DNA of 27,221 nucleotides, taken from IMG/VR virus record IMGVR_UViG_3300017969_000105, positions 1-27,221 of that record; one strand, 5' to 3'. The number at the start of each line of letters is the position of its first letter. Within the stretch, counting starts at the first letter, position 1. Under the pieces are notes generated by a model, which was not told the DNA's origin, did no database searches, and saw nothing but the letters and a program-made list of their open reading frames with translations. This document shows positions 4,283-19,773 of this stretch, piece after piece. Origin of the DNA: a virus. The position numbers and the translations under genes are program-made.

Positions 4283-4310
4283 GGGGGAGCTTATCCTGAA
4301 GCTGGTCCCC
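4283..4310 (-). promoter_or_regulatory. 5'-terminal stem-loop of the left-end operon transcript
   Basis: On the minus strand GGGG and AGCTT pair with AAGCT and CCCC around a 6-nt loop (CAGGAT), with a 3-nt bulge (ACC). The expected transcript start is about 4309-4310, so the RNA would begin inside the stem. There is no T-tract, so it is not a terminator. It may protect the 5' end. Pairing is seen by eye; function is inferred. Confidence 0.5.
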
Positions 4311-4315
4311 AGTTC

Positions 4316-4345
4316 ATTGTAACAAATGCTATGGTCAGTTGTCAA
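4316..4345 (-). promoter_or_regulatory. Sigma70-like promoter for left-end operon
   Basis: Minus strand: -35 TTGACA (4345-4340), 18-bp spacer, -10 TACAAT (4321-4316). It is a near-consensus match, sits in the intergenic gap, faces the coiled-coil/ligase operon, and follows the terminator at 4385-4418. Confidence 0.7.
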
Positions 4346-4902: not shown

Positions 4903-5337
4903 CTACTCGTCTTCTTCGAGAGTCGACAGCAGTTCGGCAGTGTCGATGCCGGACTCTTCGAGCTCCTTCTTGAGAGCATCCATCCGTTCTTGCATCTTCT
5001 GCAAGCGTTTGGCTTTGGCCGCGGCTTTCTTGCCACCACCCTTGCGAATCAGTTCGGCTTCATCGCGGTAGCCTTTGGCTTTCTGCTCGAGATCTTCGGC
5101 TCGCATAATGAGGTAAGAGGCTTCGGAAGCGAAGTCTGATTTGCGAAGCGGCTTGTGAACTTTGGGATCAAAGTCATCGGGAACAGACTCGAGTTTTTCG
5201 GTCGGTTTCCCGTCAGCATCGACCTTGAGCAGCGGATGATGAACTTTACCTTTCTTTTGCGGCGCAGTCGATTCATCGCCTTTGCTTCCAGGTTTAGCAG
5301 ACTTGGCAGATTCTTGAGGTTTGTTCTTCGTAGCCAT
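4903..5337 (-). CDS. Hypothetical lysine-rich, coiled-coil protein
   Basis: A 144-residue highly charged protein. The first 30 residues (MATKNKPQESAKSAKPGSKG and on) are rich in Lys, Ser and Pro and likely disordered. HHPLLKVDADGKPTEKLESV and DPKVHKPLRKSDF follow. Residues about 75-135 form a probable coiled coil (MRAEDLEQKAKGYRDEAELI, then KAKRLQKMQERMDALKKELEE), ending in an acidic LEEDE. No enzyme motif is visible. It has its own promoter (5409-5437), an AGGAGA site and a strong terminator after it, which suggests a separately controlled and perhaps abundant product. A structural or scaffold role is possible but not shown. Confidence 0.75.
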   Translation of the reverse strand: MATKNKPQESAKSAKPGSKGDESTAPQKKGKVHHPLLKVDADGKPTEKLESVPDDFDPKVHKPLRKSDFASEASYLIMRAEDLEQKAKGYRDEAELIRKGGGKKAAAKAKRLQKMQERMDALKKELEESGIDTAELLSTLEEDE

Positions 5338-5377
5338 GATTCGTTTCTCCTATAAGAAACAGAGTTCAAAAGTTTTC

Positions 5378-5397
5378 GACAATCAACTTTGATTGCC
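5378..5397 (-). promoter_or_regulatory. 5'-terminal stem-loop of 4903-5337 transcript
   Basis: Minus strand GGCAATCA pairs with TGATTGTC around AAGT: 8 bp including one G-U pair. It begins about 5 nt after the expected transcript start (near 5402) and has no T-run. Confidence 0.55.
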
Positions 5398-5408
5398 AAG
5401 ATAGGTCC

Positions 5409-5437
5409 AATGTATCCTGTGGATGTGTTTGTGTAAA
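5409..5437 (-). promoter_or_regulatory. Sigma70-like promoter for 4903-5337 gene
   Basis: Minus strand: -35 TTTACA (5437-5432), 17-bp spacer, -10 TACATT (5414-5409). The -35 hexamer is the same as in three other promoters of the window. It lies directly after the terminator at 5464-5502. Confidence 0.6.
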
Positions 5438-5463
5438 TCTCAAAACAGTAAAAAATGGAAAGT

Positions 5464-5502
5464 TTTTAGAAAAAGTTCTGGGGCCCGAGATGGACCCCAG
5501 AA
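5464..5502 (-). terminator. Rho-independent terminator after 5512-5946 gene
   Basis: Minus strand: perfect 8-bp stem TTCTGGGG (5502-5495) with CCCCAGAA (5483-5476), 11-nt loop, then CTTTTTCTAAAAA. It ends the small-gene operon started at 6560. Confidence 0.85.
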
Positions 5503-5511
5503 TCGTCGGGT

Positions 5512-5946
5512 CTATTCGTCCAATTGAATCAATTGGCCAATAACATCGATGAACCCTAGCTCGTCACGTTGGACTTGCCAACGGTCGCCGTCACCATCTA
5601 CATAGATGGCATAGTCATCGGAGTAGCTGAAAAGTTTACAGAGTTCGGGACATCCGAAAATCGGAAGTTGCATTTCATCAACCCAAGTCCAACATTCGGT
5701 CAAGTAGAACTCAGTGAACAAGAAAAGCTCTGCATCCTCAAGTACTAAGAATGTCTTGCAGCTATTTCCGATGACAACATCGAAAGTGTTTGCGACTGTC
5801 TTCTCAATGAAGAGCGTGCCGCCGGCGTAAGTGTAGCCTTGTGAACTTCCAAGAACGTCGTCAGCAAGAGCGTCAGCAAGCGAGTCGTTCCAAGTTCGTG
5901 TTAGTCGAAAAGATTCAATGTTGTGAAAGTCGTGAATGTTCTTCAT
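5512..5946 (-). CDS. Hypothetical acidic protein (144 aa)
   Basis: A 144-residue acidic protein, starting MKNIHDFHNIES, with several aromatic and hydrophobic strand-like stretches (CKTFLVLEDAELFLFTEFYL; YAIYVDGDGDRWQV). By eye, acidic residues outnumber basic ones by more than two to one. VDGDGDRW could be a turn or a metal loop, but no family is recognised. The leader ACATAGGAGACATCACA and the first codons (MKN) are shared with the next upstream gene at 5985-6200. It is the last gene before the terminator at 5464-5502. Confidence 0.7.
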   Translation of the reverse strand: MKNIHDFHNIESFRLTRTWNDSLADALADDVLGSSQGYTYAGGTLFIEKTVANTFDVVIGNSCKTFLVLEDAELFLFTEFYLTECWTWVDEMQLPIFGCPELCKLFSYSDDYAIYVDGDGDRWQVQRDELGFIDVIGQLIQLDE

Positions 5947-5984
5947 TGTGATGTCTCCTATGTGTAAAGGTAAAGTTAAGTAGG

Positions 5985-6200
5985 TTATCCGACTACTGTG
6001 ATCCCGTGATGAACAAGAACGGTGATCATTGGATCATTGTTGTGCATGACGACTGGAACGAATCGACCTTCCTCGTTTACTGCAATCAAGTAGTTCACTC
6101 GGTCGAAGCCACATGCTTCAAGTTCTTTCTCCAGTTTCTTCTTTGCGTTATCGAAGGTAGCGTAGCCTTTTGACTTTGCGATGTTTGTCAAGTTCTTCAT
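5985..6200 (-). CDS. Small hypothetical protein (71 aa)
   Basis: A 71-residue protein with a helical, basic N-terminal half (MKNLTNIAKSKGYATFDNAK, then KLEKELEACGFD) and a strand-rich C-terminal half (YLIAVNEEGRFVPVVMHNND, then MITVLVHHGITVVG). It is compact and probably folds as a small alpha/beta domain. It resembles short phage proteins of unknown function. A perfect copy of the common leader (CACTTACATAGGAGA) precedes it. It is read from the promoter at 6537-6565. Confidence 0.7.
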   Translation of the reverse strand: MKNLTNIAKSKGYATFDNAKKKLEKELEACGFDRVNYLIAVNEEGRFVPVVMHNNDPMITVLVHHGITVVG

Positions 6201-6207
6201 TGTGATG

Positions 6208-6222
6208 TCTCCTATGTAAGTG
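6208..6222 (-). repeat. Common leader copy before 5985-6200 gene
   Basis: Minus strand CACTTACATAGGAGA, identical to the copies at 6488-6502, 7543-7557, 19357-19371 and 19701-19715. It holds the Shine-Dalgarno sequence AGGAGA plus conserved bases upstream of it. Confidence 0.75.
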
Positions 6223-6229
6223 TTAGTGA

Positions 6230-6481
6230 TTAAGCGTGGCAGCGATTCTGTTGACGAACTTCATTTGCGAACTCAAGGAACAGTTGAGTCAAGTCTTCGA
6301 TCAAAGTGTCCCGATGATTTCTCCAAGAGTAGCTGTAACCCATCTCTTTCCCAAGGTCGATCAGTTGCTTCTTGTTCTTGGTGTCCTTGTCCAATCGATT
6401 GCGAAGTACCTTTGCGATCGAGCGGTCAGTTTTGTTTTCGGCGACAAGTTCTGCAACTTCTGTTTGAATCGATTTCTTCAT
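6230..6481 (-). CDS. Small basic hypothetical protein (83 aa)
   Basis: An 83-residue, Lys/Arg-rich, mostly helical protein: MKKSIQTEVAELVAENKTDR, then VLRNRLDKDTKNKKQLIDLGKEMGYSYSWRNHRDTLIEDL. The run of short helices broken by NKTDRS and YSYSWRNH could be a small DNA-binding helical domain, but no family is recognised. It is the first gene behind the promoter at 6537-6565, with the stem-loop at 6508-6527 and a perfect common leader. Confidence 0.7.
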   Translation of the reverse strand: MKKSIQTEVAELVAENKTDRSIAKVLRNRLDKDTKNKKQLIDLGKEMGYSYSWRNHRDTLIEDLTQLFLEFANEVRQQNRCHA

Positions 6482-6507
6482 TGTGTATCTCCTATGTAAG
6501 TGTTTGT

Positions 6508-6527
6508 GTCGATCAACAGCAATCGAC
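6508..6527 (-). promoter_or_regulatory. 5'-terminal stem-loop of 6481 transcript
   Basis: Minus strand GTCGAT pairs perfectly with ATCGAC around an 8-nt loop. It starts about 3 nt after the expected transcript start (near 6530) and leads straight into the common leader. Confidence 0.6.
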
Positions 6528-6536
6528 TATGTATAC

Positions 6537-6565
6537 ATTATCGACATATGGGGAAGTTATGTAAA
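6537..6565 (-). promoter_or_regulatory. Sigma70-like promoter for small-gene cluster
   Basis: Minus strand: -35 TTTACA (6565-6560), 17-bp spacer, -10 GATAAT (6542-6537). Same hexamers and spacing as the promoter at 7592-7620. An inverted repeat arm overlaps the spacer. Confidence 0.7.
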
Positions 6566-6590
6566 TAGGAAACGGGAAAAAACTTCCTCA
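6549..6590 (-). promoter_or_regulatory. Operator-like inverted repeat around promoter
   Basis: Arms at 6549-6557 (plus TGGGGAAGT) and 6582-6590 (plus ACTTCCTCA), paired except for one position, flank the -35 region. The inner arm lies between -35 and -10. The arrangement matches a pair of repressor sites, by comparison with the perfect version at 7604-7645. Confidence 0.45.
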
Positions 6591-6606
6591 TTTTGAAAAA
6601 TTTTTC
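6573..6606 (-). repeat. 34-bp block upstream of promoter, copy 1
   Basis: Identical over 34 bp to 7628-7661. It includes the outer operator arm, a T-run, and the 12-bp palindrome GAAAAATTTTTC. The A/T tracts could act as an UP element. Confidence 0.75.
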
Positions 6607-6618
6607 TGAAGTCCTGAA

Positions 6619-6783
6619 TCATCCTGTTTTCACGTACCCTCGAGACAGGTATTGTTTATAAGCTTTTCGAGCGGCATGAACTGGAAGCAGGACTGGTAGC
6701 TCGTCATTCTTTTTAATGACCGTAACTGAAGAAAGGACCGTGAACTTAACACGATCCTTTCCCTTAACCAATTGGACAATCAT
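6619..6783 (-). CDS. Small hypothetical protein (54 aa)
   Basis: A 54-codon frame from ATG 6783 to TGA 6619. The protein begins MIVQLVKGKDRVKFTVLSSV and ends with a basic helix-like segment (ARKAYKQYLSRGYVKTG). It starts 3 nt after the stop of the 86-residue gene. AGGAG lies about 14 nt before the ATG, inside that gene, which is a little far. Translational coupling is therefore likely. Without it the 170-bp gap would be unexplained. No family recognised. Confidence 0.55.
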   Translation of the reverse strand: MIVQLVKGKDRVKFTVLSSVTVIKKNDELPVLLPVHAARKAYKQYLSRGYVKTG

Positions 6784-6786
6784 ATG

Positions 6787-7047
6787 TCAGATTCCAACTC
6801 CTGGTGGTCGATCAGACTCCATGTATTCCTTTCTCTCTTGACCGTTAAGATGATATCGGGCAAAGGACCAACACGACTGCCAGTAATCCCTTGCGAACTC
6901 GATCGTGTTGGCCTCTAAGCGATGCTTACGGAACCCGTGATGGTATTCACATTCACTATCGATCAAGTGCTGATCCTGCAAGTCTTCGTCATTGTAACAT
7001 TCCAATGCGAACTCAAGTACTTCCTCAATCGGCGTGTTGCTTGTCAT
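6787..7047 (-). CDS. Small acidic hypothetical protein (86 aa)
   Basis: An 86-residue protein, MTSNTPIEEVLEFALECYND, then SECEYHHGFRKHRLEANTIEFARDYWQSCWSFARYHLNGQER. Acidic in the first half, aromatic and histidine-rich in the second, probably all helical. No family recognised. The leader TTTACATAGGAGACATCACA is the shortened form of the common leader. It belongs to the run of small genes downstream of the promoter at 7592-7620. Confidence 0.7.
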   Translation of the reverse strand: MTSNTPIEEVLEFALECYNDEDLQDQHLIDSECEYHHGFRKHRLEANTIEFARDYWQSCWSFARYHLNGQERKEYMESDRPPGVGI

Positions 7048-7074
7048 TGTGATGTCTCCTATGTAAAGGTTAAG

Positions 7075-7236
7075 TTAAAATCCAGCAAGCAGTAAGTCAA
7101 TGATCGTGTTCACCTTTCGCGTTGCGTTACTGCGTAAGTGCAGCGTGGCGAATGTTACTGCAATGGTTACTTCGTGTCGGCCAACATCCACGTGTTCGCC
7201 TTTGTGTTCATAGCAAGGACATGTTACGGTCAGCAT
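7075..7236 (-). CDS. Small hypothetical protein (53 aa)
   Basis: A 53-codon frame from ATG 7236 to TAA 7075, below usual size cut-offs. The protein starts MLTVTCPCYEHKGEHVDVGR, with Cys6, Cys8 and three His residues that might bind a metal, and ends KVNTIIDLLLAGF. The leader TTTTCACATAGGAGAAACACG and the first codons (ATGCTGACC) are nearly the same as those of the 74-residue gene upstream, which supports it as a real gene. It lies after the terminator at 7267-7286 and before the 86-residue gene. Confidence 0.6.
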   Translation of the reverse strand: MLTVTCPCYEHKGEHVDVGRHEVTIAVTFATLHLRSNATRKVNTIIDLLLAGF

Positions 7237-7255
7237 CGTGTTTCTCCTATGTGAA

Positions 7256-7286
7256 AAGAATAAGAAGGCCGCCCCGGAGGGCGACC
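7256..7286 (-). terminator. Rho-independent terminator after 7312-7536 gene
   Basis: Minus strand: GGTCGCCC (7286-7279) pairs with GGGCGGCC (7274-7267) with one G-U, 4-nt loop, then TTCTTATTCTTTT. The next gene begins only 20 nt further on and has no promoter of its own, so this terminator is probably partial. Confidence 0.7.
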
Positions 7287-7311
7287 AGTTATGTCTTCAT
7301 TGTATCAGCAT

Positions 7312-7536
7312 TCAGAACATCCAAGGTTTTTCTTCAAGATCCCATGCACGTCCATTGTAACTCACGTGACCAATTTTCTTGCCATCTTTCTCAAGCATTC
7401 CACAATTGCCTCGCATGTCACGCGACCCGATAAAATAGTGATCGCGGTGCTTTCTCCAAGCAGCACTTGCAGCAGCAACAGACTCGACTTCTTGTTTGAA
7501 GTTTGCTTCAGTTGTGTGAATGGTGATGGTCAGCAT
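7312..7536 (-). CDS. Small hypothetical protein (74 aa)
   Basis: A 74-residue protein: MLTITIHTTEANFKQEVESV, then AAASAAWRKHRDHYFIGSRD and a C-terminal strand-rich part (GKKIGHVSYNGRAWDLEEKPW). The last part could be a short beta-hairpin that binds a ligand or protein. It is the first gene behind the promoter at 7592-7620 and has the common leader. Its first codons match those of the 53-residue gene downstream. No function assigned. Confidence 0.7.
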   Translation of the reverse strand: MLTITIHTTEANFKQEVESVAAASAAWRKHRDHYFIGSRDMRGNCGMLEKDGKKIGHVSYNGRAWDLEEKPWMF

Positions 7537-7566
7537 CGTGTTTCTCCTATGTAAGTGTTTGTGTTT

Positions 7567-7582
7567 GTCGATTTGTTTCGAC
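7567..7582 (-). promoter_or_regulatory. 5'-terminal stem-loop of 7536 transcript
   Basis: Minus strand GTCGA pairs with TCGAC around a 6-nt loop, about 3 nt after the expected transcript start (near 7585), followed by ACAAACACAAACACTTACATAGGAGA in two runs up to the ribosome site. Confidence 0.55.
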
Positions 7583-7591
7583 TATGTTTCT

Positions 7592-7620
7592 ATTATCGAC
7601 ATGTGAGGAAGTAATGTAAA
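7592..7620 (-). promoter_or_regulatory. Sigma70-like promoter after DNA polymerase gene
   Basis: Minus strand: -35 TTTACA (7620-7615), 17-bp spacer, -10 GATAAT (7597-7592). It shares both hexamers, spacing and upstream block with the promoter at 6537-6565. Confidence 0.7.
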
Positions 7621-7645
7621 TACCAATCGGGAAAAAACTTCCTCA
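7604..7645 (-). promoter_or_regulatory. Operator-like perfect 9-bp inverted repeat around promoter
   Basis: Arms TGAGGAAGT (7604-7612) and ACTTCCTCA (7637-7645) are exact complements, 24 bp apart. One lies between -35 and -10, the other upstream of -35. Two repressor sites or an RNA stem from read-through are possible. Confidence 0.5.
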
Positions 7646-7661
7646 TTTTGAAAAATTTTTC
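7628..7661 (-). repeat. 34-bp block upstream of promoter, copy 2
   Basis: Identical to 6573-6606, about 1.05 kb away, while the genes behind the two promoters are unrelated. Between the block and the polymerase stop is a short AT-rich stretch (7663-7690) with no clear terminator. Confidence 0.75.
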
Positions 7662-7690
7662 GGCACGCATTTTACACTACTATATTAGTA

Positions 7691-9607
7691 TCATTTTAGG
7701 TGCTCGAATGCGAATCCTTCCTCGGGCGATTCTTTTATCTCTCCAGCCGACGCTTCAGACCAGTTCTTCGAGCTGATCCCATAAGAACATCGGACAGGAA
7801 CTCGCATCTCGATTTCAGGATTGGACATGTGCCATACAAGGTCGCGTCTTGTGCGAGGATCCTCGAACACTTCCTCTGGACCTGTAAGACAAAGTTCATC
7901 GTGCACTTGAGCCATGTAACGAATAGGAGTTCCCATAAGCTTACGTCTTAAGGTAACGATTCGTTCCTTCATAAGGTCAGCAGCAGTTGATTGGTTCAAT
8001 GTATTGAAAGCGATGTGAGCACGATCCGCCGGCAAGTGTCTATGACGTCCAAGCAAGTTCTTAACGTAGCCTCGAGCCTCAGCAACCTTTGCAGCCTTAC
8101 GACTTACACGCTTAAGCTCAGGAACCATTTCATGATACCCATCGTACACAGACTTTGCTTTTCGATTTCTTAGGTACTTGTAGATCTTATCGACTTGATC
8201 CTCGGACGATGCTTTCTCTTTTGCGATCTCAAGCAAGTGACCGACAAGATCCAAGTTAGATGACAAGGCCTCTTCGACCAAAGCGCGTCCACCACCGAAA
8301 CCCATAAGGAAGTTCATCGTCTTAGCCGGCTTACGCTTAATGCCACAAAGCTGAGCGACAAGTTGATGGTAGTCTGTCCATGGGTCTGTGTTGTATGCTG
8401 CAACGATCGCTGGGTTGTTTGTGTAATGCGCAATCGTTCGGAATTCGATTTGCGAATCGTCAATCGAAAAGAAAGCGCATCCTTCACGAGGAATGATCAA
8501 TGACTTAGCTAACTTGTTAAGCTGCTGTGAGTTGGGTTTCTTACATGACATACGACCTGTACGCACAGCTTGATTGTAACTTGGATGTAAGATTCCATCA
8601 ACGTGCAGTTCTTGATACGGCTTAACGAAAAAGCTAACGAAGGTCGATAGTGATCGGTACTGCAACATTGTCTTGACCAGTTCAACCGGAGCGTCGGCAT
8701 GGGTCAAGTACAGCTTAAGAGTGTCTTTATCGAATGAAGGGTTGTTGTCCTCCGTCCATCCTAGGACAGGTAAACCGTATTGATTGCAAAGGATGTCATA
8801 GCAGTCAGCTGAGTTGTCAGCCCTGAACATTTGGCCCGTGATGTCATACATCTTTTCATCGAGCTCCAACATCTTGTTCATGCAATTGATCTCTTGGGCC
8901 TTAAGCATGTTTGGGTCGACGCGCATTCCTTCACGTTCCATTTCAAACAAGGCCATCGTCAATTCTATTTCAGTGTTTGAGACTCGCCGGCATTCCTCGG
9001 GCATTCGGGACTCGATGTACTTGTCCAACCTCCTTGCAGTAATCACGTCTTGGCCAGCGTAAGGTGCCATGATGTCAGGCGGTATCGCTCCATAATCTTT
9101 GTTATTATGCAAGTACGGTTTCATAGCATCTTCATACTCACTAATATCATGCCTGAGCCAATGCTTACTGAGCGCGTCGATAGAATACCCGCCCTTAAAC
9201 TGGCGGTCACTATCGATGATTTTAGCCTGAGTCATCGTGTCCTTAAGTATGTAGTCGGGGTCGACCAATACTCCTAAGGCATTAGCACTTACGTGGCAGT
9301 CGTATTTCACGTTGTGGTTCGTCCACTGCTTTGATTGGTCAACAACATCGAACCACCAGTCAATGAACGCGTCACGATCAATGTTTGGCCCGTTGTGGTG
9401 ACCAACTGGAATGTACCACGCTTGCTTGTGATCATCCACAGTTATGCCCAGGCCGGCAACGTCACAGTTGTGCCAAGGGTTTACCGATTTCTCAGTCTTA
9501 CTGCCGGACGTTGTTTCAAAGTCAGCGAAGATCGTATGAGCGCCGGCTAGTGCCGGCAACTCATCGACGCGTTCAACCATCTTAACACCATTATCAAAAG
9601 TCAGCAT
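7691..9607 (-). CDS. Family A DNA polymerase with 3'-5' exonuclease
   Basis: A 638-residue PolA-type replicative polymerase without the 5'-3' exonuclease domain. The proofreading domain has Asp29 and Glu31 (FADFETT), Asp103 (NHNVKYD) and Asp187 (YAGQDVI). In the polymerase domain, motif A is SIDDSQIEFR (Asp383 catalytic), motif B is RKPAKTMNFLMGFG (Lys429 and Phe433, matching E. coli Lys758 and Phe762), and motif C is QVHDEL (Asp570). Unusual changes are Asp384 for Tyr706, Leu434 for Gly763 and Phe437 for Tyr766 (E. coli numbering). The Phe at the 762 position is the state often linked to virulent phages with this polymerase. The start overlaps the kinase stop by 7 nt. Confidence 0.95.
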   Translation of the reverse strand: MLTFDNGVKMVERVDELPALAGAHTIFADFETTSGSKTEKSVNPWHNCDVAGLGITVDDHKQAWYIPVGHHNGPNIDRDAFIDWWFDVVDQSKQWTNHNVKYDCHVSANALGVLVDPDYILKDTMTQAKIIDSDRQFKGGYSIDALSKHWLRHDISEYEDAMKPYLHNNKDYGAIPPDIMAPYAGQDVITARRLDKYIESRMPEECRRVSNTEIELTMALFEMEREGMRVDPNMLKAQEINCMNKMLELDEKMYDITGQMFRADNSADCYDILCNQYGLPVLGWTEDNNPSFDKDTLKLYLTHADAPVELVKTMLQYRSLSTFVSFFVKPYQELHVDGILHPSYNQAVRTGRMSCKKPNSQQLNKLAKSLIIPREGCAFFSIDDSQIEFRTIAHYTNNPAIVAAYNTDPWTDYHQLVAQLCGIKRKPAKTMNFLMGFGGGRALVEEALSSNLDLVGHLLEIAKEKASSEDQVDKIYKYLRNRKAKSVYDGYHEMVPELKRVSRKAAKVAEARGYVKNLLGRHRHLPADRAHIAFNTLNQSTAADLMKERIVTLRRKLMGTPIRYMAQVHDELCLTGPEEVFEDPRTRRDLVWHMSNPEIEMRVPVRCSYGISSKNWSEASAGEIKESPEEGFAFEHLK

Positions 9608-10134
9608 ATGTTGAACATCTCCTCTTGTCGTTCAAGGTAAGCATCAAGTATGATTTGAGCTTGACGATCAGTAACGTAAGGCATGTCCTCATTCAACTTG
9701 ATAAAGAAGTCATATTGAATGTCATACCGATCAAACGTATTCTCGATGTCGAAGTAAGCAGAGTTAACTGCAAGACATTGACCTACGTCATACATTTCCT
9801 TTCGTTCCTTGTATCTCTCCTTGAGCATTGCAGGATCCTCAAAGCAAATGACAACAGTCATCATGCCTTTAAGCGTAAGCATTGCGTCAATGAATCGATA
9901 CAAGTTCGGCGTGATAGGCGTCTGTCCTCGACATACAGTGCCATACACTAACTCGCTCATGTGGAATCGATCTTGCACGAAGTAATGACCACTGTGAATG
10001 TCATAGTCGTGAAAGTAATCGAAGTGAGGTGGCAGCAACCCGAAGTGTCGATACATATGTCGAGGCAACGCTTCTAGAAACTTGCCGGCCAATGTTGTCT
10101 TCCCCACTAAGTCTGGTCCTTCAATAATCAGCAT
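9601..10134 (-). CDS. Deoxynucleoside monophosphate kinase (P-loop, thymidylate-kinase-like)
   Basis: A P-loop kinase of about 177 residues. MLIIEGPDLVGKTTL is the Walker A loop with the G-P-D-x-x-G-K-T-T form of dTMP kinases and deoxynucleoside kinases. FVQDRFHMSELVYG holds the DR-x substrate motif. A LID-like Arg-rich segment follows (KERYKERKEMYD). ATG 10134 is preferred over 10143 because GGAGG lies 10 nt before it and only 1 nt before the other. Its ATG overlaps the stop of the thymidylate-synthase homologue (ATGCTGA). By comparison with T4 gp1 it may phosphorylate the product of that enzyme. This role is inferred from position; dTMP itself is the simpler substrate. Confidence 0.85.
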   Translation of the reverse strand: MLIIEGPDLVGKTTLAGKFLEALPRHMYRHFGLLPPHFDYFHDYDIHSGHYFVQDRFHMSELVYGTVCRGQTPITPNLYRFIDAMLTLKGMMTVVICFEDPAMLKERYKERKEMYDVGQCLAVNSAYFDIENTFDRYDIQYDFFIKLNEDMPYVTDRQAQIILDAYLERQEEMFNIC

Positions 10135-11066
10135 CTCTTCCATGCCTCCGATCTGTAAACAGGTTTAACATCGTAAAGTTTATGACGACATGCTTGAAGC
10201 ATATCACAAAAGAATGGGAAGGCGTTTATGTAATCGTGGTCGAGCATATAGTCTTCCCGCTTGCATCTAAGAATCTCTTCTTTCGCAACCGCCGAACTGA
10301 CTGTGTAAGTGTTTTCGTCCTTTCCAAGTAAATCAAGCCGGCGATGTTTGTAGTCTGTGCAACTCAAGGCCAACTTAGCCTTGTCGAAGTGCTTGTCATA
10401 AATGTGCATACTACCTACATTGTGAGTATAGGTTCCGAACTCCAAGTCGAGTGATCGTGCCATCAACTTTTGCAGAGTAGTGAAGCAAAACACATCATAA
10501 GGAAACCCAAGCCATATGTCGTTACTTCGCATATTCACGATCATATGCAACTTACCGTGACGGGCAATGAACTGCAAGGTTAGAGTACACGGCATATCTT
10601 TGACATCTAACTTGAAAGCATGAGGTAAGTCAGTAGGCCACCATAGGGATATGACAGCTTGACGACTATTGGGATGCTTACGAAGAATGTCTAAGACATA
10701 GCCTATCTGGTTGACCTTCGGGCAGGCTAAAGGATTAGCCATACGCCATCCGTAGGCCCCGTGTGCTATGTCATGCTCAGCAAAGTTTTGGTATGATGGA
10801 GCGTACTCCTTAATTCTTTTGATGTCACGCTCGCCGCTCATGTACCAAAGAAGCTCTGCTGAGGCATAACTTTTGCACAGGTCCCGAATAGGATTGCACA
10901 ACCAGTTGTACTCAATGTCGATTAAGGTCGCACTGAACCCAAGCAGCTCACTCGTACCGCCGGCGCGACTTAACAAGTTCGTCCCACGGGATAATAGGCT
11001 TTCCAGTGTCTGGGTCCAGATTGAATCGATACTTGTGTGGCACTCCTCCGTATGGAAGAACGTCAT
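10128..11066 (-). CDS. Thymidylate synthase homologue, likely dCMP-specific (hydroxymethylase or methylase)
   Basis: A 312-residue member of the thymidylate synthase and dCMP hydroxymethylase family, which add a one-carbon unit from folate to C5 of dUMP or dCMP. AELLWYMSG (70-78) and GAYGWRM are family segments. MPCTLTLQF holds the nucleophile Cys160. MRSNDIWLGFPYDVF matches the RSxDxxLGxPFN motif, but Asp191 stands where dUMP enzymes have Asn (E. coli Asn177). That exchange is the known switch to dCMP in T4 dCMP hydroxymethylase and in engineered synthases. GSMHIYDKHF gives the HxY pair. AAGGAGAA precedes ATG 11066. The first 119 nt overlap the methyltransferase gene in another frame. Confidence 0.85.
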   Translation of the reverse strand: MTFFHTEECHTSIDSIWTQTLESLLSRGTNLLSRAGGTSELLGFSATLIDIEYNWLCNPIRDLCKSYASAELLWYMSGERDIKRIKEYAPSYQNFAEHDIAHGAYGWRMANPLACPKVNQIGYVLDILRKHPNSRQAVISLWWPTDLPHAFKLDVKDMPCTLTLQFIARHGKLHMIVNMRSNDIWLGFPYDVFCFTTLQKLMARSLDLEFGTYTHNVGSMHIYDKHFDKAKLALSCTDYKHRRLDLLGKDENTYTVSSAVAKEEILRCKREDYMLDHDYINAFPFFCDMLQACRHKLYDVKPVYRSEAWKRC

Positions 11067-12213
11067 GGCTTCTCCTTATAGTAGAGACATAGTTCGTTAG
11101 GTTGAAAACTTTCTCGTCCGCACCATGAACATCGTCGCCTTCCCATACACAATCACGATGATTATAGGATGACTCCCAGTCCTCATTGCCCCAATGATTG
11201 TCGAGGTAAAGGTCGACCTGTTCAGCAAGCCATTGGCCTACTGCTGGCACGACGCCTTTCGCAAGCTGAGCACCAGGGTTTCGACCGACAGGTATATTGT
11301 CGCCCCAGCCCATGGCGGCTGCTAGCTCGCGAACAGTAAAAGGACGGTGGTGCTCAGGGTGGATTTGCCGAATGCAACTACTCGACATAGTCGGGAATTG
11401 ATTCAACCAGCTCGTGCGACTAATGCAGTGCAGTGAGAACGGCATATCACTTGTGCGTGCCATCCATACGAAACGGTAATGCTCAGGCAACGATGTCGGC
11501 GAATACTTCGCGAATCGATTTAAGCAATACCCGTTAGGTAGCAAAGGCACGACTTCCTTTTCATCCTCCGACAATTGACAGTACGCACCACCGTCGTAAC
11601 CATCGCTTGTGTGGAAAGGATATTCATAAGCCTCCATATCTTTCATTTGATACAGCGGGTCATAAGTTGCCGGACGCCATGGGTAGAGATCGGGTGGAAC
11701 GATGTTGAAGTTTGCATCCTTCTTATATGCCAAGAAGAAATACCGCTTGCGCATTTGAGGGCACCCAAAAGTACCAGCATTGATAAAAAGGTGAGCAATG
11801 CGATAACCATTAGGCACGCACCACTGATCACGCAAGTAATCCAGTAGCTCGCGACCAGTGGAGTATGCTTGTTGAACACTCTCCCAACAGATGACCGGGT
11901 AATCATTCTTAACTCCATATTCCATAAGTTCATGAATGTCCCGTGTTTGCTTCGCCCAAGCTCCGTGTGTCTCTTCAGAATAGCCTGAAGTAATACAACT
12001 GAAGCCTGTGCATCGTGGATTACCGAAAACCCAATCAGCTTCAATCTTAGGCCAATCCTTTGCATCAGAATTGACTGTGTTGACACCACAAACCTTTTCA
12101 GCAGTGTCTAACGCAAACCCGTGGGTCTCAAGGTGTGTGTCCACATTGTGAACCTTGTTAACACCAAGAGTGAAGCCTCCTGCGAACACGTGAACTCCTA
12201 AAGCCTTCTTCAT
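10948..12213 (-). CDS. Cytosine-C5 DNA methyltransferase homologue with altered motifs
   Basis: A 421-residue Dcm-family protein. Motif I is VFAGGFTLGV, one residue shorter than the usual FxGxGGxxxG. Motif IV is GNPRCTGFS, keeping the nucleophile Cys68 but with Arg for the second Pro of PPC. Motif VI is WESV (Glu111) in place of ENV. Motif VIII is QMRKR (153-157). RPFTVRELAAAMGW and QLAKGVVPAVGQWLAEQV fit motifs IX and X. The region between VIII and IX, the target-recognition part, is present. About 100 residues follow motif X and overlap the next gene. It may methylate phage DNA against host nucleases or act on another C5 group. It starts 3 nt after the MazG stop, with AGAGGAG upstream. Confidence 0.85.
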   Translation of the reverse strand: MKKALGVHVFAGGFTLGVNKVHNVDTHLETHGFALDTAEKVCGVNTVNSDAKDWPKIEADWVFGNPRCTGFSCITSGYSEETHGAWAKQTRDIHELMEYGVKNDYPVICWESVQQAYSTGRELLDYLRDQWCVPNGYRIAHLFINAGTFGCPQMRKRYFFLAYKKDANFNIVPPDLYPWRPATYDPLYQMKDMEAYEYPFHTSDGYDGGAYCQLSEDEKEVVPLLPNGYCLNRFAKYSPTSLPEHYRFVWMARTSDMPFSLHCISRTSWLNQFPTMSSSCIRQIHPEHHRPFTVRELAAAMGWGDNIPVGRNPGAQLAKGVVPAVGQWLAEQVDLYLDNHWGNEDWESSYNHRDCVWEGDDVHGADEKVFNLTNYVSTIRRSHDVLPYGGVPHKYRFNLDPDTGKPIIPWDELVKSRRRYE

Positions 12214-12216
12214 AAC

Positions 12217-12717
12217 TTACTCCTCTTCGTCACCCTGAGGAATCTCTCTCAAAACTCCGTCATGGGTCGGTCTGCTTTTGTGAATCTTGAGCACGCGCTC
12301 AAGGTCAGGCGCTACATACGTTTCACCTTTATCACGTACACGACCGGGATCGTCAGCAGCACGAGTCTTACTCATGTTGCTCTTATGCACCTCAGCAAAG
12401 GCCGAATCCATCGGCCAGTCATAAATCCTTGCAGTACCTGAGAGCACATACTGCAAATCGGTAGCTCCGTCAAGAGCTTCAACTTCGTCGCCATCAGCCA
12501 AGGCCATTAAGAACTCGCCTAACTCTTCAGCAAGCAAGTGGCCTCGACTAACACACATGTCCTCGTCGATGAATTCTTCGAGGTCAAGTCCAATGTCTCG
12601 GATTGCAACGCCCGCTTCATACAACCTTTCGTTTCTTGATATTGGGATATCAGCCTCACGAGGCAGGTTCATCTTTTTGTGAAAGGCGTCAACACATTGC
12701 ATAATGTATTTAAGCAT
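12217..12717 (-). CDS. MazG-type all-alpha NTP pyrophosphohydrolase (dCTPase/dUTPase-like)
   Basis: A 166-residue protein with the metal-binding pattern of all-alpha NTP pyrophosphatases: LAEELGEFL gives EExxE (64, 65, 68) and EALDGATDLQYVL gives ExxD plus Asp87. AEVHKSNMSKTRA is a conserved segment of phage MazG-like proteins. The family cleaves dNTPs to dNMP and pyrophosphate; T4 gp56, the dCTPase that clears dCTP, has the same general fold. It lies between the primase and the methyltransferase, and its ATG overlaps the primase stop (TAATG). Given the neighbours, removal of dCTP or dUTP is likely. House-cleaning or stringent-response interference are other known roles of the family. Confidence 0.8.
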   Translation of the reverse strand: MLKYIMQCVDAFHKKMNLPREADIPISRNERLYEAGVAIRDIGLDLEEFIDEDMCVSRGHLLAEELGEFLMALADGDEVEALDGATDLQYVLSGTARIYDWPMDSAFAEVHKSNMSKTRAADDPGRVRDKGETYVAPDLERVLKIHKSRPTHDGVLREIPQGDEEE

Positions 12718-15518
12718 TAGAACTCCTCTTCAATAAAGTCAGGACGGTCCTGCAAGTTGCCATCCTCAAGTAATGACTTAAGCATCTTGATGAACGGGCC
12801 CGTCTTACGGTATGATCGACCTTCGCGCACTAGGCAGTGCTTACGAACGAAGAGCGATAATGTTCCTTGTGCCTCGGTCTTATCCCACCCACACCAATCT
12901 TGTATGTCTTGCATATCTATTTTATTGGTGTGAAGTAGTTGTGTTACGAAATCCTTAGGAAACGGCGAGGACTCTATGTGGCGCTTAACAACGTCTGGGT
13001 CTTTAAGTTGTTCGCTTATGTTGATTGCTTGAGTGAAATCACTATACCCAAAGACCTGTGATGAATACATTCGCTTAAGCATGTTGACAATGTACTCAAC
13101 GTGTTCCTTCTTTACGATTAAGTTGAAGTCATCGTCGTGAGAGAATAAGCGGCCGGCAAGGGCAGCAGCAAGTCGAGCAATTTTATATCGACCTGAACCT
13201 CTATCGAAGATAGGTACAGCGTCCGAGAACATCCCTGATAACTCGGTGGCCCCAGCTAAAATAGAATCCTTTGCGGCAGGGTCGAAGTAGGCTCTATCTC
13301 GCGTCCAGGTCCATAGAATCAGGTCCCTGCATAGTTCGCTAGTATAGACATGTTCGACGTCTGGTCTCATAGCTTGCAGTTCATTCAACTTGCCCGTGTC
13401 AATTTCTTTTGCTGACACAAGGCCGAAGATATCGAATCGTCTTACGTCCTCAAGACCACCCACAAGTTCCTTGATCGCTTCGATGCCAAAGTTATATGTA
13501 TGAAGTGGATGCTCACTCCTTGGGTTGCTTAATGCGATAAGTCGTGTACGTGCTGACGTCTTGCGTTTCTCGATCTTAGGAATCTCTGCAACTCCAGATG
13601 ACCGCATGTCAGTCAACTTACCAATAACATCTGTGCTTGCGCCTTTAAGTTCCTCAAGTACAACTAAGCGCTTATCATGAGTAGGAATGACTCCCCACGT
13701 CACAAACCATTTACTTCCCATTTGCTGCAAGCCGCCAAGTAAACCCGCAACTGATGCATTCTTGCATTCAACCTTTTCTCCTAGTCCATAGTGTTTCATT
13801 AAGTGTTGGGTAGTGTCAGACTTGCCTTGTGAACTGTCACCTAAGATCAAAGACTCAACCCAACCTTTGATAGTGCGACCATCAAAGTCAAGAAACAGAG
13901 GGCTGTGATAAGTTAAGTCAACGATCTTATGCAAGTCGCGTCTTTGAAAGATCCTAGTGACATTTGCTTCAAGGTCATTATAGATCTCATCGAGCTTATC
14001 CTCAATCGATTGACCTTTCTTAGGTTGAAAGACCTTGAGCTTTTCAGGATTGGTAAGTTGATACGTGCTAAGCGCGTCCTGGGTTGTTTCATATCCACTT
14101 ATAAGTAACGTCGCTTGTTGTGATTGAGGATGAGGCCACATGCGACCTATCATCTCGTAGGACTCATTAAGTTCCAACCCGGGACCAATACAATAGGCAG
14201 GTTGCATAACACGATCGCTTGAACGATTCGTGATTTCAAGTTGAGGACTTATTCTTACATCCTCTACGTTGTGGTACTCATGCACATCGAATTCGCACAC
14301 ACCGCAACGTCTAGGTATTCCAATCGAGGACATGAGTGCTTCACGTTGACCTTTCTTGGAACCTCCAACCATTTCAAGCACAGCGTCTGATTCATGATTG
14401 ATTGAGAAACAGTGCTCGCCTGTCATCATCACAGGGCAAGCAGCACAAACCTTTTGATCCTCAGAGCACTGAACCTCTACTTCAGCTGGAATCGAATAAG
14501 GTGCAGTATCCATTGCTGACACAACAGACGTAAGCTTGATTCTTTTGCCTGTGTTTTCTGCAAGTACTGCTCTTGTTAGGTCCGTGTCCTCTGGGTCAAC
14601 GTCTTCAAGCTGATCCTTGCCTTCAGCTTTGAACTCAGAACAGTCATCAAGTAGTGGCTTAAGCATTCCACCTTCAGCAACATAGTCATTGATGTCGCCT
14701 TTAGGATGCTTGTCCTTATCCAAAGGCAATATGATATTGCCCACCCACCTCGCTTGATGCCTAAGCATTGCACAACGCATCTTAGCAGATTCTTGACCTG
14801 CTTCATCGATGTCATTGCAAACCCAGACTTTCTTGCCTATGAATTCCTTACTTAACGTGGCATCCCAGTTGTCCTCACCGCATGTTGCAGATACAGCGCC
14901 TATGTTATGCTTGTTAAGTTCAGCAGCTGCGACGACTGCCTTCATCTCGCCGCCGCATACAAGTATCTCATCGTATTCAAGTTGTTCGATTGGGTATAGG
15001 CGGATCTTACCATGGCCTCTAAGATTCTTCATCTTCTCTGGGCCAGGTGCTCCAGGCAAATACCTCCTAATGTTAACATACAAGCCGCCAGCATTCTTAA
15101 CAGGTATCGTGACACGTCCTTTGTGTTCGCCTAATCGATACTTGCGGATCAACTCGTCTGTTACTGCACGCTTATGCAACTCTGTAAGGAATGGTCCTGC
15201 ATCCCAAATGGCTCTGTGGTATTTCTCAACGGTATCAGCATCGATGATTTTAGACGTGTCGAATTCATATCGCTTCGATAGGTCAGCAAACACGACTTCA
15301 CGTGACGTCTTTAGGAATCGAGCAAGCAACGATATAATGTCGCCAGTCTTTCCACATCCAGCAGTCTGACATTTAAAGACTCGCTTCTCAACGTTCACGT
15401 GGCAAGAAGGTGATGTGTCGTTGTGAAACGGACAACATACCTTAACTTCCTCGTCGGCAGCCCAATCATAGTCGATGCCGTAGTTCTCAAGTTCGGCTAT
15501 GACACTAATCTGTTTCAT
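12717..15518 (-). CDS. Primase fused to MCM-like AAA+ helicase
   Basis: A 933-residue replication protein from ATG 15518. The N-terminus has a CHC2 zinc finger (Cys29, His32, Cys50, Cys55) and a TOPRIM core (VCGGEMKAVVA, then VCNDIDEAG). Next is a cysteine-rich linker with CAAC, RRCGVC and single Cys, perhaps a second zinc site with an OB-like part. The C-terminus is an AAA+ ATPase: Walker A GDSSQGKS (Lys566), Walker B LVVLEE (Glu622, Glu623), sensor 1 Asn665 (IALSNPR), and RRFD as an MCM-type arginine finger. The familiar phage fusion (T7 gp4) uses a RecA-type helicase instead. ATG 15518 was chosen because an upstream ATG at 15563 lies in the loop of a terminator; AGGG precedes 15518. Confidence 0.9.
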   Translation of the reverse strand: MKQISVIAELENYGIDYDWAADEEVKVCCPFHNDTSPSCHVNVEKRVFKCQTAGCGKTGDIISLLARFLKTSREVVFADLSKRYEFDTSKIIDADTVEKYHRAIWDAGPFLTELHKRAVTDELIRKYRLGEHKGRVTIPVKNAGGLYVNIRRYLPGAPGPEKMKNLRGHGKIRLYPIEQLEYDEILVCGGEMKAVVAAAELNKHNIGAVSATCGEDNWDATLSKEFIGKKVWVCNDIDEAGQESAKMRCAMLRHQARWVGNIILPLDKDKHPKGDINDYVAEGGMLKPLLDDCSEFKAEGKDQLEDVDPEDTDLTRAVLAENTGKRIKLTSVVSAMDTAPYSIPAEVEVQCSEDQKVCAACPVMMTGEHCFSINHESDAVLEMVGGSKKGQREALMSSIGIPRRCGVCEFDVHEYHNVEDVRISPQLEITNRSSDRVMQPAYCIGPGLELNESYEMIGRMWPHPQSQQATLLISGYETTQDALSTYQLTNPEKLKVFQPKKGQSIEDKLDEIYNDLEANVTRIFQRRDLHKIVDLTYHSPLFLDFDGRTIKGWVESLILGDSSQGKSDTTQHLMKHYGLGEKVECKNASVAGLLGGLQQMGSKWFVTWGVIPTHDKRLVVLEELKGASTDVIGKLTDMRSSGVAEIPKIEKRKTSARTRLIALSNPRSEHPLHTYNFGIEAIKELVGGLEDVRRFDIFGLVSAKEIDTGKLNELQAMRPDVEHVYTSELCRDLILWTWTRDRAYFDPAAKDSILAGATELSGMFSDAVPIFDRGSGRYKIARLAAALAGRLFSHDDDFNLIVKKEHVEYIVNMLKRMYSSQVFGYSDFTQAINISEQLKDPDVVKRHIESSPFPKDFVTQLLHTNKIDMQDIQDWCGWDKTEAQGTLSLFVRKHCLVREGRSYRKTGPFIKMLKSLLEDGNLQDRPDFIEEEF

Positions 15519-15536
15519 TTGAAGGTACCCTAGGCA

Positions 15537-15579
15537 TAAAAGGAACCACCCAATCGCAACCATGCAAAAGGGTGGCTCC
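15537..15579 (-). terminator. Rho-independent terminator before primase-helicase
   Basis: Minus strand: GGAGCCACCC (15579-15570) pairs with GGGTGGTTCC (15551-15542), one G-U, 18-nt loop, then TTTT. No promoter fits before the primase start at 15518, so read-through must supply the genes downstream. Confidence 0.75.
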
Positions 15580-15597
15580 GTGACGGTGAAATCTTAA

Positions 15598-16413
15598 TCA
15601 GAATTCAGAGCCAGCCGTAGGGTCAGGATCGTTATCACTTGATCCTGAGTCTTCCAGATCATTGACGATTCGTGAATCAGCATGAGCCTCTTTCATTTCA
15701 GCATGAAGCTCAGCGAATCGTTTGTAAAGGTCCTCATCTTGAACATAAGCAGGACCTGCAGGGTTGTCGACTTCGATCCCGTACCACACTCCGTTATCGT
15801 TTGATCTATAAACCGAGTGAGCTTGGAATACGTTGCCATAGATCGATGCCTTGCGCATCTTGATCAAGGCAGCGAAGTTCGTGCCAACACTGTGTTCACC
15901 TCCGCGGAATGATAAGATCATCGGCTCGAGGTTAAGCGGATGTTCCTGCATGTTGTACAGAGCAACGATAAAGTTCAAATGCTCTTCATGCGAAACAGGT
16001 TTGCCGCAAGACAACCCGACATCCTCTTGACGAGTGTTTGAGTCTCGTGACTTCATTGCAATCGATGAGCGTGGATCATGCGATCTTGCAGCCACACGAG
16101 GCGCATCCTTTTGCTCTCTTGGATTAAGTGTAACCCACTCAGGCCAAAAGAAGATAGGAACGATAAGGAACGGAGTGCCGTTCTTCTTATCCTCCATGCC
16201 GGCCAGTTTGGTCATCGTTGGTAACACAATGACTTCACCAGCGTCGAACTTGTCGGTGAACTCTTCGCCCGACGTTGATTGAACAACCTTGATACGCGGA
16301 GGCCGAATAAAGTTGTTGAGTTCATCAATGCCTTCGCGCTCACCCTCTTGCATAAAAGAAGGCAATTGCATTTCCTGTGGGATCAACTCGTTTTCGTCTG
16401 TCTTCTTAGCCAT
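15598..16413 (-). CDS. Conserved replication-region protein, possible ssDNA-binding protein
   Basis: A 271-residue protein. After a polar start, residues 35-100 read IRPPRIKVVQSTSGEEFTDK, then DAGEVIVLPTMTKLA and FLIVPIFFWPEWVTLN, a pattern of beta-strands I have seen in phage proteins of unknown function near replication genes (PRIKxxQ then VPL/VPIxxxxxW). The last 25 residues are acidic and end in Phe (SSDNDPDPTAGSEF), like the acidic tails of ssDNA-binding proteins such as T7 gp2.5. It lies before the primase-helicase and is followed by a terminator. AAGGAC precedes the ATG. ssDNA binding is inferred from tail and position only. Confidence 0.75.
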   Translation of the reverse strand: MAKKTDENELIPQEMQLPSFMQEGEREGIDELNNFIRPPRIKVVQSTSGEEFTDKFDAGEVIVLPTMTKLAGMEDKKNGTPFLIVPIFFWPEWVTLNPREQKDAPRVAARSHDPRSSIAMKSRDSNTRQEDVGLSCGKPVSHEEHLNFIVALYNMQEHPLNLEPMILSFRGGEHSVGTNFAALIKMRKASIYGNVFQAHSVYRSNDNGVWYGIEVDNPAGPAYVQDEDLYKRFAELHAEMKEAHADSRIVNDLEDSGSSDNDPDPTAGSEF

Positions 16414-16470
16414 GATGGCAGTCCTTCATAATGGTAATCAAGTAATCAGTTAATTAGTTAACACAAATCA

Positions 16471-17028
16471 TTAGTCGTCGAGGTTCGACTCAAGCAGCAC
16501 TTCGTCCATGTCCTTTACCTTTCTAACCTCGAGAGTGAACACTGGGTACTTGCTTTCAGGATCGATTCCTTTAGGCAGCTGCTTGCCGTCTGCAAGTAAC
16601 TCAGTTAGGTATTCCACAAACCCGGGCCAGTGTAGTCTAACACTATCACTAACCCATAAGGCCTCTGGAATGTTAAGTGATCGCATAAGTTCCTCAAAGG
16701 CTTCGGGATCTTTTCGCCTTGATGGAACGCTTGCAGTCATTCGAACTTTAGGCGAGCCTATACAATTATCTGTCCTGATAGGTTCTGCATCGTCTTGCTC
16801 TGTCCATCGCACGCATCCGAGTTTTTGTGCGACGTCGTTTGCCTTGCGAACGTCTTTACGAACCTCTTCAAGATGGCGCATCGCTTCGCGTGTGGCATAA
16901 ACGACATCAGCGATTTCTTGTAAGTCGCCCTCAGCCTTTACTAAGTCGAACAATGGAGCACGAAGCTTAAACATTTCTTCGTGTAGCTCCTTGCACAACT
17001 TGTAAACTTTGACTGCGGTATCATACAT
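16471..17028 (-). CDS. Conserved phage protein of unknown function (185 aa)
   Basis: A 185-residue protein in two parts. Residues 1-75 are helical and charged (YKLCKELHEEMFKLRAPLFD; REAMRHLEEVRKDVRKANDV), probably a coiled coil. Residues 95-185 look like a small alpha/beta domain (KVRMTASVPSRRKDPEAFEE; LPKGIDPESKYPVFTLEVRK). No catalytic motif is visible. It overlaps the 110-residue gene by 8 nt, and AGGAGA lies before its ATG. Its place between the SNF2 helicase and the possible ssDNA-binding protein suggests a replication or recombination accessory. Confidence 0.75.
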   Translation of the reverse strand: MYDTAVKVYKLCKELHEEMFKLRAPLFDLVKAEGDLQEIADVVYATREAMRHLEEVRKDVRKANDVAQKLGCVRWTEQDDAEPIRTDNCIGSPKVRMTASVPSRRKDPEAFEELMRSLNIPEALWVSDSVRLHWPGFVEYLTELLADGKQLPKGIDPESKYPVFTLEVRKVKDMDEVLLESNLDD

Positions 17029-17353
17029 AGACCTTGTCTCCTATTTCAACCTCAACATACGAGAGTACTGAGGCATCGTACTGCAAAGTGGTTACGTTGC
17101 CGTACATCGAAACTAATGCCCCAGTCACCACGACCATCGTGGATAAAGATCCTACGATTGCAAACTTGTCCTTTTTAGGATCGAAGCTTGACTCGCGAAT
17201 CTTGTCGGCTACCAGTCTTGCAAAAGCTGGCTCAAATATCGGAGGTCGCCGCTCATCGTCCGTGATGAGCTCAACGACTTCTCCAAAGTTGTACAATGTC
17301 GAAAGGTCTAAGTCCTTACGACGTGGTTGCTGTAAAACGAATACGCGGTTCAT
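17021..17353 (-). CDS. Conserved phage protein of unknown function (110 aa)
   Basis: A 110-residue protein beginning MNRVFVLQQPRRKDLDLSTL, with FGEVVELITDDERR, a middle helix (FARLVADKIRESSF), then KFAIVGSLSTMVVVTGALVS and a C-terminal strand pair. This outline, starting MNRVFVxQQPxRKD, is familiar from replication regions of Pseudomonas-type phages, where it has no assigned function. It overlaps the helicase stop (ATGA) and the next gene by 8 nt, so it is translated together with both. Confidence 0.75.
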   Translation of the reverse strand: MNRVFVLQQPRRKDLDLSTLYNFGEVVELITDDERRPPIFEPAFARLVADKIRESSFDPKKDKFAIVGSLSTMVVVTGALVSMYGNVTTLQYDASVLSYVEVEIGDKVYV

Positions 17354-19350: not shown

Positions 19351-19356
19351 TTCTTT

Positions 19357-19371
19357 TCTCCTATGTAAGTG
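19357..19371 (-). repeat. Common leader copy before SNF2 helicase
   Basis: Minus strand CACTTACATAGGAGA, exact copy. Here it lies inside an operon, 23 nt after the preceding stop, with no promoter. Confidence 0.7.
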
Positions 19372-19373
19372 TC

Positions 19374-19694
19374 TTATGCTTCAAGCCATGCTTCGTATTC
19401 TTCAGCGTAGTCATCGCTTATGCAATACGATTCGAGTTCGGGATGCATAGCTTCAAGATCTTCGATCATGATGCCTTCGGGCAGGTCATCATAAAGCTTA
19501 GCGTTCAATGCTTCCCATTGATCAAGATCACCGGACCATTCATAGATGCTTAAGTAATCATCATACAGCGCAAATGCTCGGTCACCATCAACTGCAAGCG
19601 ATGTCTCTGGGCAGTTGGGAGCAAACTTAACGTGTCGCCATTCAAGATAGGCGAAGTCGGACGGGACAAAGTTGTCATTTAAATCAGCATTCAT
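19374..19694 (-). CDS. Very acidic small protein, candidate DNA mimic
   Basis: A 106-residue protein with 27 Asp/Glu and only 4 Lys/Arg, and many aromatic residues (FAYLEWRHVKF, DDYLSIYEWSGDLDQWEA, CISDDYAEEYEAWLEA). Such a composition is seen in DNA-mimic inhibitors such as T7 Ocr, but no family is recognised by sequence. It is the first gene behind a strong promoter (19745-19773), with a 5' stem-loop and the common leader, and precedes the SNF2 helicase. It could also be a helicase partner. The DNA-mimic idea rests on charge and position alone. Confidence 0.75.
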   Translation of the reverse strand: MNADLNDNFVPSDFAYLEWRHVKFAPNCPETSLAVDGDRAFALYDDYLSIYEWSGDLDQWEALNAKLYDDLPEGIMIEDLEAMHPELESYCISDDYAEEYEAWLEA

Positions 19695-19718
19695 CGTGTT
19701 TCTCCTATGTAAGTGTTT

Positions 19719-19733
19719 GCTTGACTATCAAGC
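19719..19733 (-). promoter_or_regulatory. 5'-terminal stem-loop of 19694 transcript
   Basis: Minus strand GCTTGA pairs perfectly with TCAAGC around a 3-nt loop, about 5 nt after the expected transcript start (near 19738). The stem sequence is unrelated to those at 6508 and 7567, yet the position and the leader that follows are the same. Confidence 0.6.
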
Positions 19734-19744
19734 GTGATAAGACC

Positions 19745-19773
19745 AGTATACTATATAATCGACCTGATGTAAA
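19745..19773 (-). promoter_or_regulatory. Sigma70-like promoter for replication genes
   Basis: Minus strand: -35 TTTACA (19773-19768), 17-bp spacer, -10 TATACT (19750-19745). The surrounding DNA is AT-rich. It stands between the virion genes and the replication genes and probably starts the latter. Confidence 0.75.

Follow-up and report, generated by a model that had tools for sequence, protein, structure and literature searches.

The two minus-strand promoters that head the small-gene groups downstream of the DNA polymerase gene of this tailed phage are copies of a single unit, and we read this unit, with a probability of about 0.55, as an early-gene expression cassette in which a constitutive promoter would be read by the host and a 5' hairpin would protect the mRNA. 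In both copies an AT-rich block is followed by a sigma70-type promoter, a hairpin about 3 nt past the predicted start, an A/C-rich spacer and a strong ribosome site, and the whole has been duplicated as one 128-bp unit before two first genes whose 83-aa and 74-aa products are unrelated as judged by eye (Table 1). The window, by which we mean the whole stretch of DNA analysed, is the 27,221-base virus record IMGVR_UViG_3300017969_000105. The minus strand carries its early and tail genes, and a family A DNA polymerase (Pfam PF00476) is encoded at 7691-9607, with the two small-gene groups downstream of it.

A near-identical phage contig, IMGVR_UViG_3300023116_000076 (47,760 bases, henceforth the 47.8-kb contig), has ends that overlap by 430 bp at 97.4% identity. 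This end overlap is of the kind seen in a circularly permuted genome, here of about 47.3 kb, when two strain variants contribute to the assembly. A near-DNA search with window positions 5000-24000 (19 kb) returned no match among 50,697 phage records, and Rfam and tRNA searches returned none either. Ten proteins were compared with PHROGs; two of them, the polymerase and the tape measure protein, found a match, while the small genes among the ten found none.

The initial annotation had described positions 6573-6606 and 7628-7661 as equal, and the identity is exact over 34 bp, with the first mismatch at base 35. A longer minus-strand duplication has this block at its upstream end: 84 nt are 89% identical between 6523-6606 and 7578-7661, and the ungapped alignment runs on to both start codons, with 107 of 128 positions identical and 21 mismatches. 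Chance is excluded as the source of the block and of the duplication, and copying is certain. The mismatches are unevenly placed, with none in the 34 positions of the upstream block and 21 in the 94 that follow (hypergeometric 0.0008). They spare the upstream block, the -35 and -10 hexamers and the CTTACATAGGAGA ribosome module, and are found instead in the linker, in the spacer and in the loop of the hairpin. A duplication is thus plain, and one could ask no more of it than a recent recombination event with a function limited to these two promoters, the 34-bp identity reflecting youth or gene conversion, which could hold one part identical. We regard this reading as unlikely, since an event of that kind accounts poorly for mismatches that avoid the promoter elements, the upstream block and the ribosome module alike, and it leaves unexplained a pattern shared by five promoters of the genome.

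Table 1. Features of the duplicated cassette, its operons and the further promoters of the same layout (window coordinates)
Feature	Position	Strand	Basis or detail
Copy 2 34-bp block	7628..7661	-	A5T5 tract, TGAGGAAGT arm, T6 tract; about -76 to -43
Copy 2 promoter TTTACA-17-GATAAT	7592..7620	-	consensus 10/12; -35 7620-7615, -10 7597-7592; predicted start about 7585
Copy 2 inverted arms TGAGGAAGT / ACTTCCTCA	7604..7645	.	7604-7612/7637-7645; perfect 9/9, 24 nt between, around -35
Copy 2 leader hairpin GTCGA-AACAAA-TCGAC	7567..7582	-	3 nt past predicted start; z -2.55
Copy 2 A/C-rich spacer and ribosome site ...CTTACATAGGAGAAACACG	7537..7566	-	CTTACATAGGAGA module
First gene of copy 2 operon, 74 aa	7312..7536	-	ORF
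Terminator-like hairpin after 74-aa gene	7286-7267	-	terminator scan
Copy 1 34-bp block, same sequence	6573..6606	-	exact repeat of 7628-7661
Copy 1 promoter TTTACA-17-GATAAT	6537..6565	-	consensus 10/12; -35 6565-6560, -10 6542-6537; predicted start about 6530
Copy 1 inverted arms	6549..6590	.	6549-6557/6582-6590; one mismatch (8/9); 10/11 pairs over 11 bp
Copy 1 leader hairpin GTCGAT-TGCTGTTG-ATCGAC	6508..6527	-	3 nt past predicted start; z -1.08
Copy 1 A/C-rich spacer and ribosome site	6482..6507	-	CTTACATAGGAGA module
First gene of copy 1 operon, 83 aa	6230..6481	-	ORF
Strong terminator-like hairpin, end of copy 1 operon	5476..5502	-	terminator scan
Third promoter TTTACA-17-TATACT (19773-19745) and hairpin GCTTGA-TAG-TCAAGC (19733-19719)	19719..19773	-	leader z -1.88
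Fourth promoter TTTACA-17-TACATT (5437-5409) and 10-bp hairpin (5399-5376)	5376..5437	-	leader z -2.98
Fifth promoter TTGACA-18-TACAAT (4345-4316) and hairpin AGCTT-CAGGAT-AAGCT (4303-4288)	4288..4345	-	GGA in loop; whole-leader z +0.84

Both promoters have hexamers near TTGACA and TATAAT at a spacing within 16-18 nt. The initial annotation gave an incomplete account of what the two sites share, missing the conserved leader with its hairpin and ribosome site. Both predicted leaders begin with ATA followed by the stem, and loop and length differ between the copies while the pairing is kept. The same succession of promoter, stem, spacer, AGGAGA and ATG recurs at the promoters at 19773, 5437 and 4345, with the stem starting 3 nt from the predicted start at 5437, as in both copies, and 5-6 nt from it at 19773 and 4345. 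Folding was compared with that of shuffled leaders; copy 1 does slightly better than its shuffles and the 4345 leader no better, and 4345 is the weakest case among the five promoters of this layout. No T run follows the leader hairpins, and the coding-strand terminator scan lists none at the leaders.

To judge these stems against the rest of the genome, we listed all promoter-like sites on the coding strand with at least 9 of 12 consensus positions in the window, the L030 stretch and L031 1-3000, which together cover nearly the whole genome (n=41). In five of the 41, a ribosome site and start codon follow within 60 nt of the -10 hexamer, and each of the five has a perfect stem of 5 bp or longer close to +1, versus two of the 36 others (Fisher 2.8e-5, for an association tested on the same genome in which the five promoters had first been spotted by eye). 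Three further sites with a ribosome-site match 89-102 nt away have no stem of at least 5 bp. The ribosome module itself is also reused: CTTACATAGGAGA, with at most 2 mismatches, is found nine times in the window versus 0.59 expected, eight of the nine matches being on the coding strand and all within the early region. Across the 17.8 kb of L030, the shorter CATAGGAGA had no exact copy and was not in excess.

Relatives found by their polymerase (27-53% identity) allowed the layout to be followed beyond this phage. From 115 relatives 80 loci were retained, and the stem and energy tests drew on 61 of the 80 as well as on L084 and the window; the dyad survey used a comparable list, also of 61, assembled by hand. 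The 19 loci dropped by eye were four contigs of the same phage, near-duplicates, short loci, the most distant loci and L098, as L084 already stands for its contig. Promoters were counted if they had at least 10 of 12 consensus positions, a ribosome site and an ORF, which gave 27, four of them from the window. Perfect stems of 5 bp or longer occur within the first 36 nt of 13 of these leaders, versus 4.3 in shuffles (maximum of 60 shuffles: 9), and stems of 6 bp or longer in eight, versus 1.4. At 100 sites without ribosome site and ORF, 14 stems of at least 5 bp were found versus 15.1 in shuffles. Ten of the 27 had no stem of at least 4 bp within 36 nt, and folding-energy z-scores of the 27 leaders did not differ significantly from those of the 100 (p 0.079; 0.22 without the window). 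The 45 nt upstream have a lower GC content at the 27 than at the 100 sites (p 0.0005; 0.008 without the window). Leader stems in the relatives are therefore moderately supported by these counts, and AT-rich upstream blocks are well supported.

The nearest syntenic relative, L018 (50%), has a promoter TTTACA-17-TACGAT after its polymerase gene, and its orthologues of the 144-aa gene, the ligase and further genes keep the order seen in this phage. One relative, L023/L137, has its own duplicated promoter pair after the polymerase, 75 bp past the polymerase match and 1,044 bp further, with 42 nt at 79%. The 144-aa gene (4903-5337), which the promoter at 5437 precedes, is conserved: its protein has 44 ORF matches at E <=1e-3 and no Pfam match above cut-off. 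This minus-strand gene encodes a small, basic product that carries the motif P.DFD.K.HKPL..DF and is kept downstream of the polymerase in many relatives. In L020, tandem GGTCCGACGG repeats lie between early genes at 11327-11400.

AT-rich or A-tract blocks can act as UP elements or as bends at strong promoters. The 45 nt that precede the -35 have a GC content of 0.24-0.33, versus 0.47 in the window, and in the duplicated block the T6 tract (about -52 to -47) and the A5T5 tract (about -75 to -66) lie two helical turns apart. With these two tracts the block is like the UP elements and A-tract bends of strong phage promoters; unlike UP elements, it has no full match to the UP consensus as we take it to be. 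The inner GAAAAATTTTTC had been proposed to bend the DNA or to serve as an UP element. The AT-rich block as a whole fits either role, but the strain variant of the copy 2 cassette in the contig overlap differs from the window solely by a C inserted into GAAAAATTTTTC, and because this extra C interrupts GAAAAATTTTTC in one variant of copy 2, it is no strict site.

A different reading takes the inverted arms as an operator pair, at which a regulator of phage or host would bind both arms and shut off or time both promoters. Recomputation reproduced the arms as first described, flanking both -35 regions, perfect at 7604-7645 and with one mismatch at 6549-6590, and in each copy one arm does lie within the spacer between -35 and -10, a good position for repression. 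The arms are 33 bp apart from centre to centre, about three helical turns, so that they face the same side of the helix, and despite three differences in arm 2, 10/11 and 9/11 pairs are kept. In arrangement they resemble two-site phage operators, with inverted arms around the -35. As to chance, the window holds seven perfect 9-bp dyads (gap 3-40) against a shuffle mean of 4.0 (sd 2.4). When the 154-bp region that surrounds copy 2 was shuffled locally, a 9-bp dyad arose in 59 of 2000 cases, and column shuffles using both copies matched the 9-bp score in 22 of 2000 and the 11-bp score in 43 of 2000; the dyad is suggestive of something slightly beyond chance, and weaker than it appears because the site was chosen after being seen. 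Nor do the two arm pairs amount to two independent observations, because they were copied together in one duplication.

The expectation that further arm pairs would turn up elsewhere in the phage was not borne out, as the 27.2-kb window and the 47.8-kb contig hold the two duplicated sites only; copy 2 is met twice in the contig because the contig ends overlap. An extra ACTTCCTCA at 7019-7027 is intragenic and has no partner. The arms are absent from the promoters at 19773, 5437 and 4345, and no relative by polymerase appeared in a scan of the collection for exact 9-bp arms paired 22-26 apart. The pattern TGAGGAAGT-N22-26-ACTTCCTCA occurs in four stretches of viral contigs, two from the same phage and two elsewhere without visible promoter context, and in 41 stretches of bacterial genomes, many from 52-bp tandem arrays in three Bacillus strains; sequence context was viewed for nine of these stretches. 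We rejected the TGAGGAAGT/ACTTCCTCA arms as a shared phage site, their occurrences elsewhere being at what we take for chance level, the Bacillus arrays aside. The arrays have a 52-bp period, with TGAGGAAGT-N23-ACTTCCTCA contained in every unit, occur on many contigs (L041, L045, L046, L055 and others) and come from Bacillus sp. AFS088145, AFS055030 and FJAT-25509.

Promoters of some relatives do show striking dyads: in L084, one of 10 bp, perfect, lies around the -35 (7265) and one of 12 bp, also perfect and of different sequence, encloses the entire promoter at 8503. In L097, a promoter 71 bp past the polymerase is flanked by a 12-bp dyad. Palindromes centred on the -35 had looked like a conserved operator layout (L084, L019, L023, L025), but the control, drawn from 65 of the 80 relative loci together with L084 and the window, led us to reject them as a general rule: arms of at least 6 bp were found at 7 of 72 sites downstream of the polymerase versus 5 of 59 controls. 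The 10-bp dyad of L084 remains a lead. A scan of 20 small or early proteins revealed no repressor-like or DNA-binding repressor protein. The two sites of this phage differ from two-site phage operators in lacking a site family, a repressor in the scan and arms common to relatives, and the operator reading is weakly supported. The TGAGGAAGT/ACTTCCTCA arms probably arise incidentally from the conserved upstream block and the spacer; that they form a real operator has a minority chance, and we consider the operator pair quite unlikely. Of the proposal that one regulator controls both small-gene operons, what stands is that promoters of the same origin head two minus-strand small-gene operons; the regulator does not follow from it. 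An operator would also matter less than the cassette, because nothing points to a regulator.

It is very unlikely that the dyad acts in RNA, where read-through from the polymerase gene would fold the promoter region into a 9-10-bp hairpin for processing or for protection of the polymerase mRNA 3' end: both read-through RNAs do form more stable folds than their shuffles (z -2.00 and -2.71), but this rests on the same sequence evidence as the dyad and is not independent of it, copy 1 is not located after the polymerase, and the hairpin is no intrinsic terminator because no T run follows it.

In the expression cassette that we favour, host RNA polymerase would read the promoters early and constitutively, aided by the AT-rich block as an UP element or bend, and the 5'-terminal hairpin would slow 5'-end-dependent decay of the mRNA. 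Its reuse would then give strong expression to newly gained small genes.

Repeated units of promoter and stem-loop are already known, and the phage cassette is a variant of these. In the title of a 2014 paper by Comeau, PeSLs (promoter early stem-loops) are reportedly called promoter-terminator composites. The PeSLs of T4-type phages are described as a short unit of early promoter and stem-loop that recurs between genes where small genes turn over (PMC4503421), and a similar motif with an inverted repeat is described before many ORFs of the archaeal virus HGTV-1 (PMC3950731). Like the PeSLs as described there, the present phage repeats a promoter and stem-loop unit before groups of small genes. 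Unlike them, it has the stem after the start site, without a T run and not as a terminator, and whereas PeSLs occur in many copies in shuffling regions, the full cassette has two copies here, in a phage that is not T4-type.

The leaders can also be set beside stabilisers of bacterial mRNA. On the sites of the flhDC leader, the bound protein is CsrA. One source reports that a 5' hairpin stabilises bla mRNA and impedes RppH, and that in the flhDC leader a protein bound at two 5'-proximal sites blocks 5'-end-dependent attack by RNase E (PMC3997798). As in the ompA and papA leaders and the hairpin added to bla, the phage stem lies a few nucleotides from the predicted 5' end and is followed by an unstructured ribosome site (PMC3997798). 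Unlike the ompA, papA and bla stabilisers, the phage case is a prediction from sequence.

The phage also encodes a CsrA of its own, next to the early region and just past the left end of the window (L030:641-898; G001 about 8840-9097; PF02599, 48.9 bits). A sigma70 region 4 protein is encoded there too, likewise outside the window (L030:2312-2833; PF08281, 37.8 bits). Among 47 records searched, CsrA scored over the curated cut-off in nine, eight besides this phage, and sigma region 4 in 11. The GGA in the loop of the 4345 hairpin is a possible CsrA site, going by the consensus as we take it to be. In L023, whose phage encodes CsrA, a leader with GUACAAGGA and TGGAAGT/ACTTCCA around the ribosome site was seen (9936-9978 and 12404-12634), and GUACAAGGA presumably fits the same consensus. 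The sigma-like protein may direct late transcription of the structural genes; the scan for promoter-like sites gave no clear sigma70 promoters with ribosome sites for these genes. CsrA in phages is already in print, with 30 of 2517 phage genomes (PMC7366521). A broader scheme, in which tailed phages related by polymerase copy a movable cassette before new small genes and the hairpin, aided by CsrA on some leaders (4345), preserves early mRNA until the sigma-like factor takes over, seems to us very unlikely to hold as a whole.

Should the cassette reading be true, the rule of a promoter, a stem at +3 to +12 and a ribosome site would find early starts in the sequences of uncultured phages, and the expression of newly gained small genes would become testable on one short DNA cassette.
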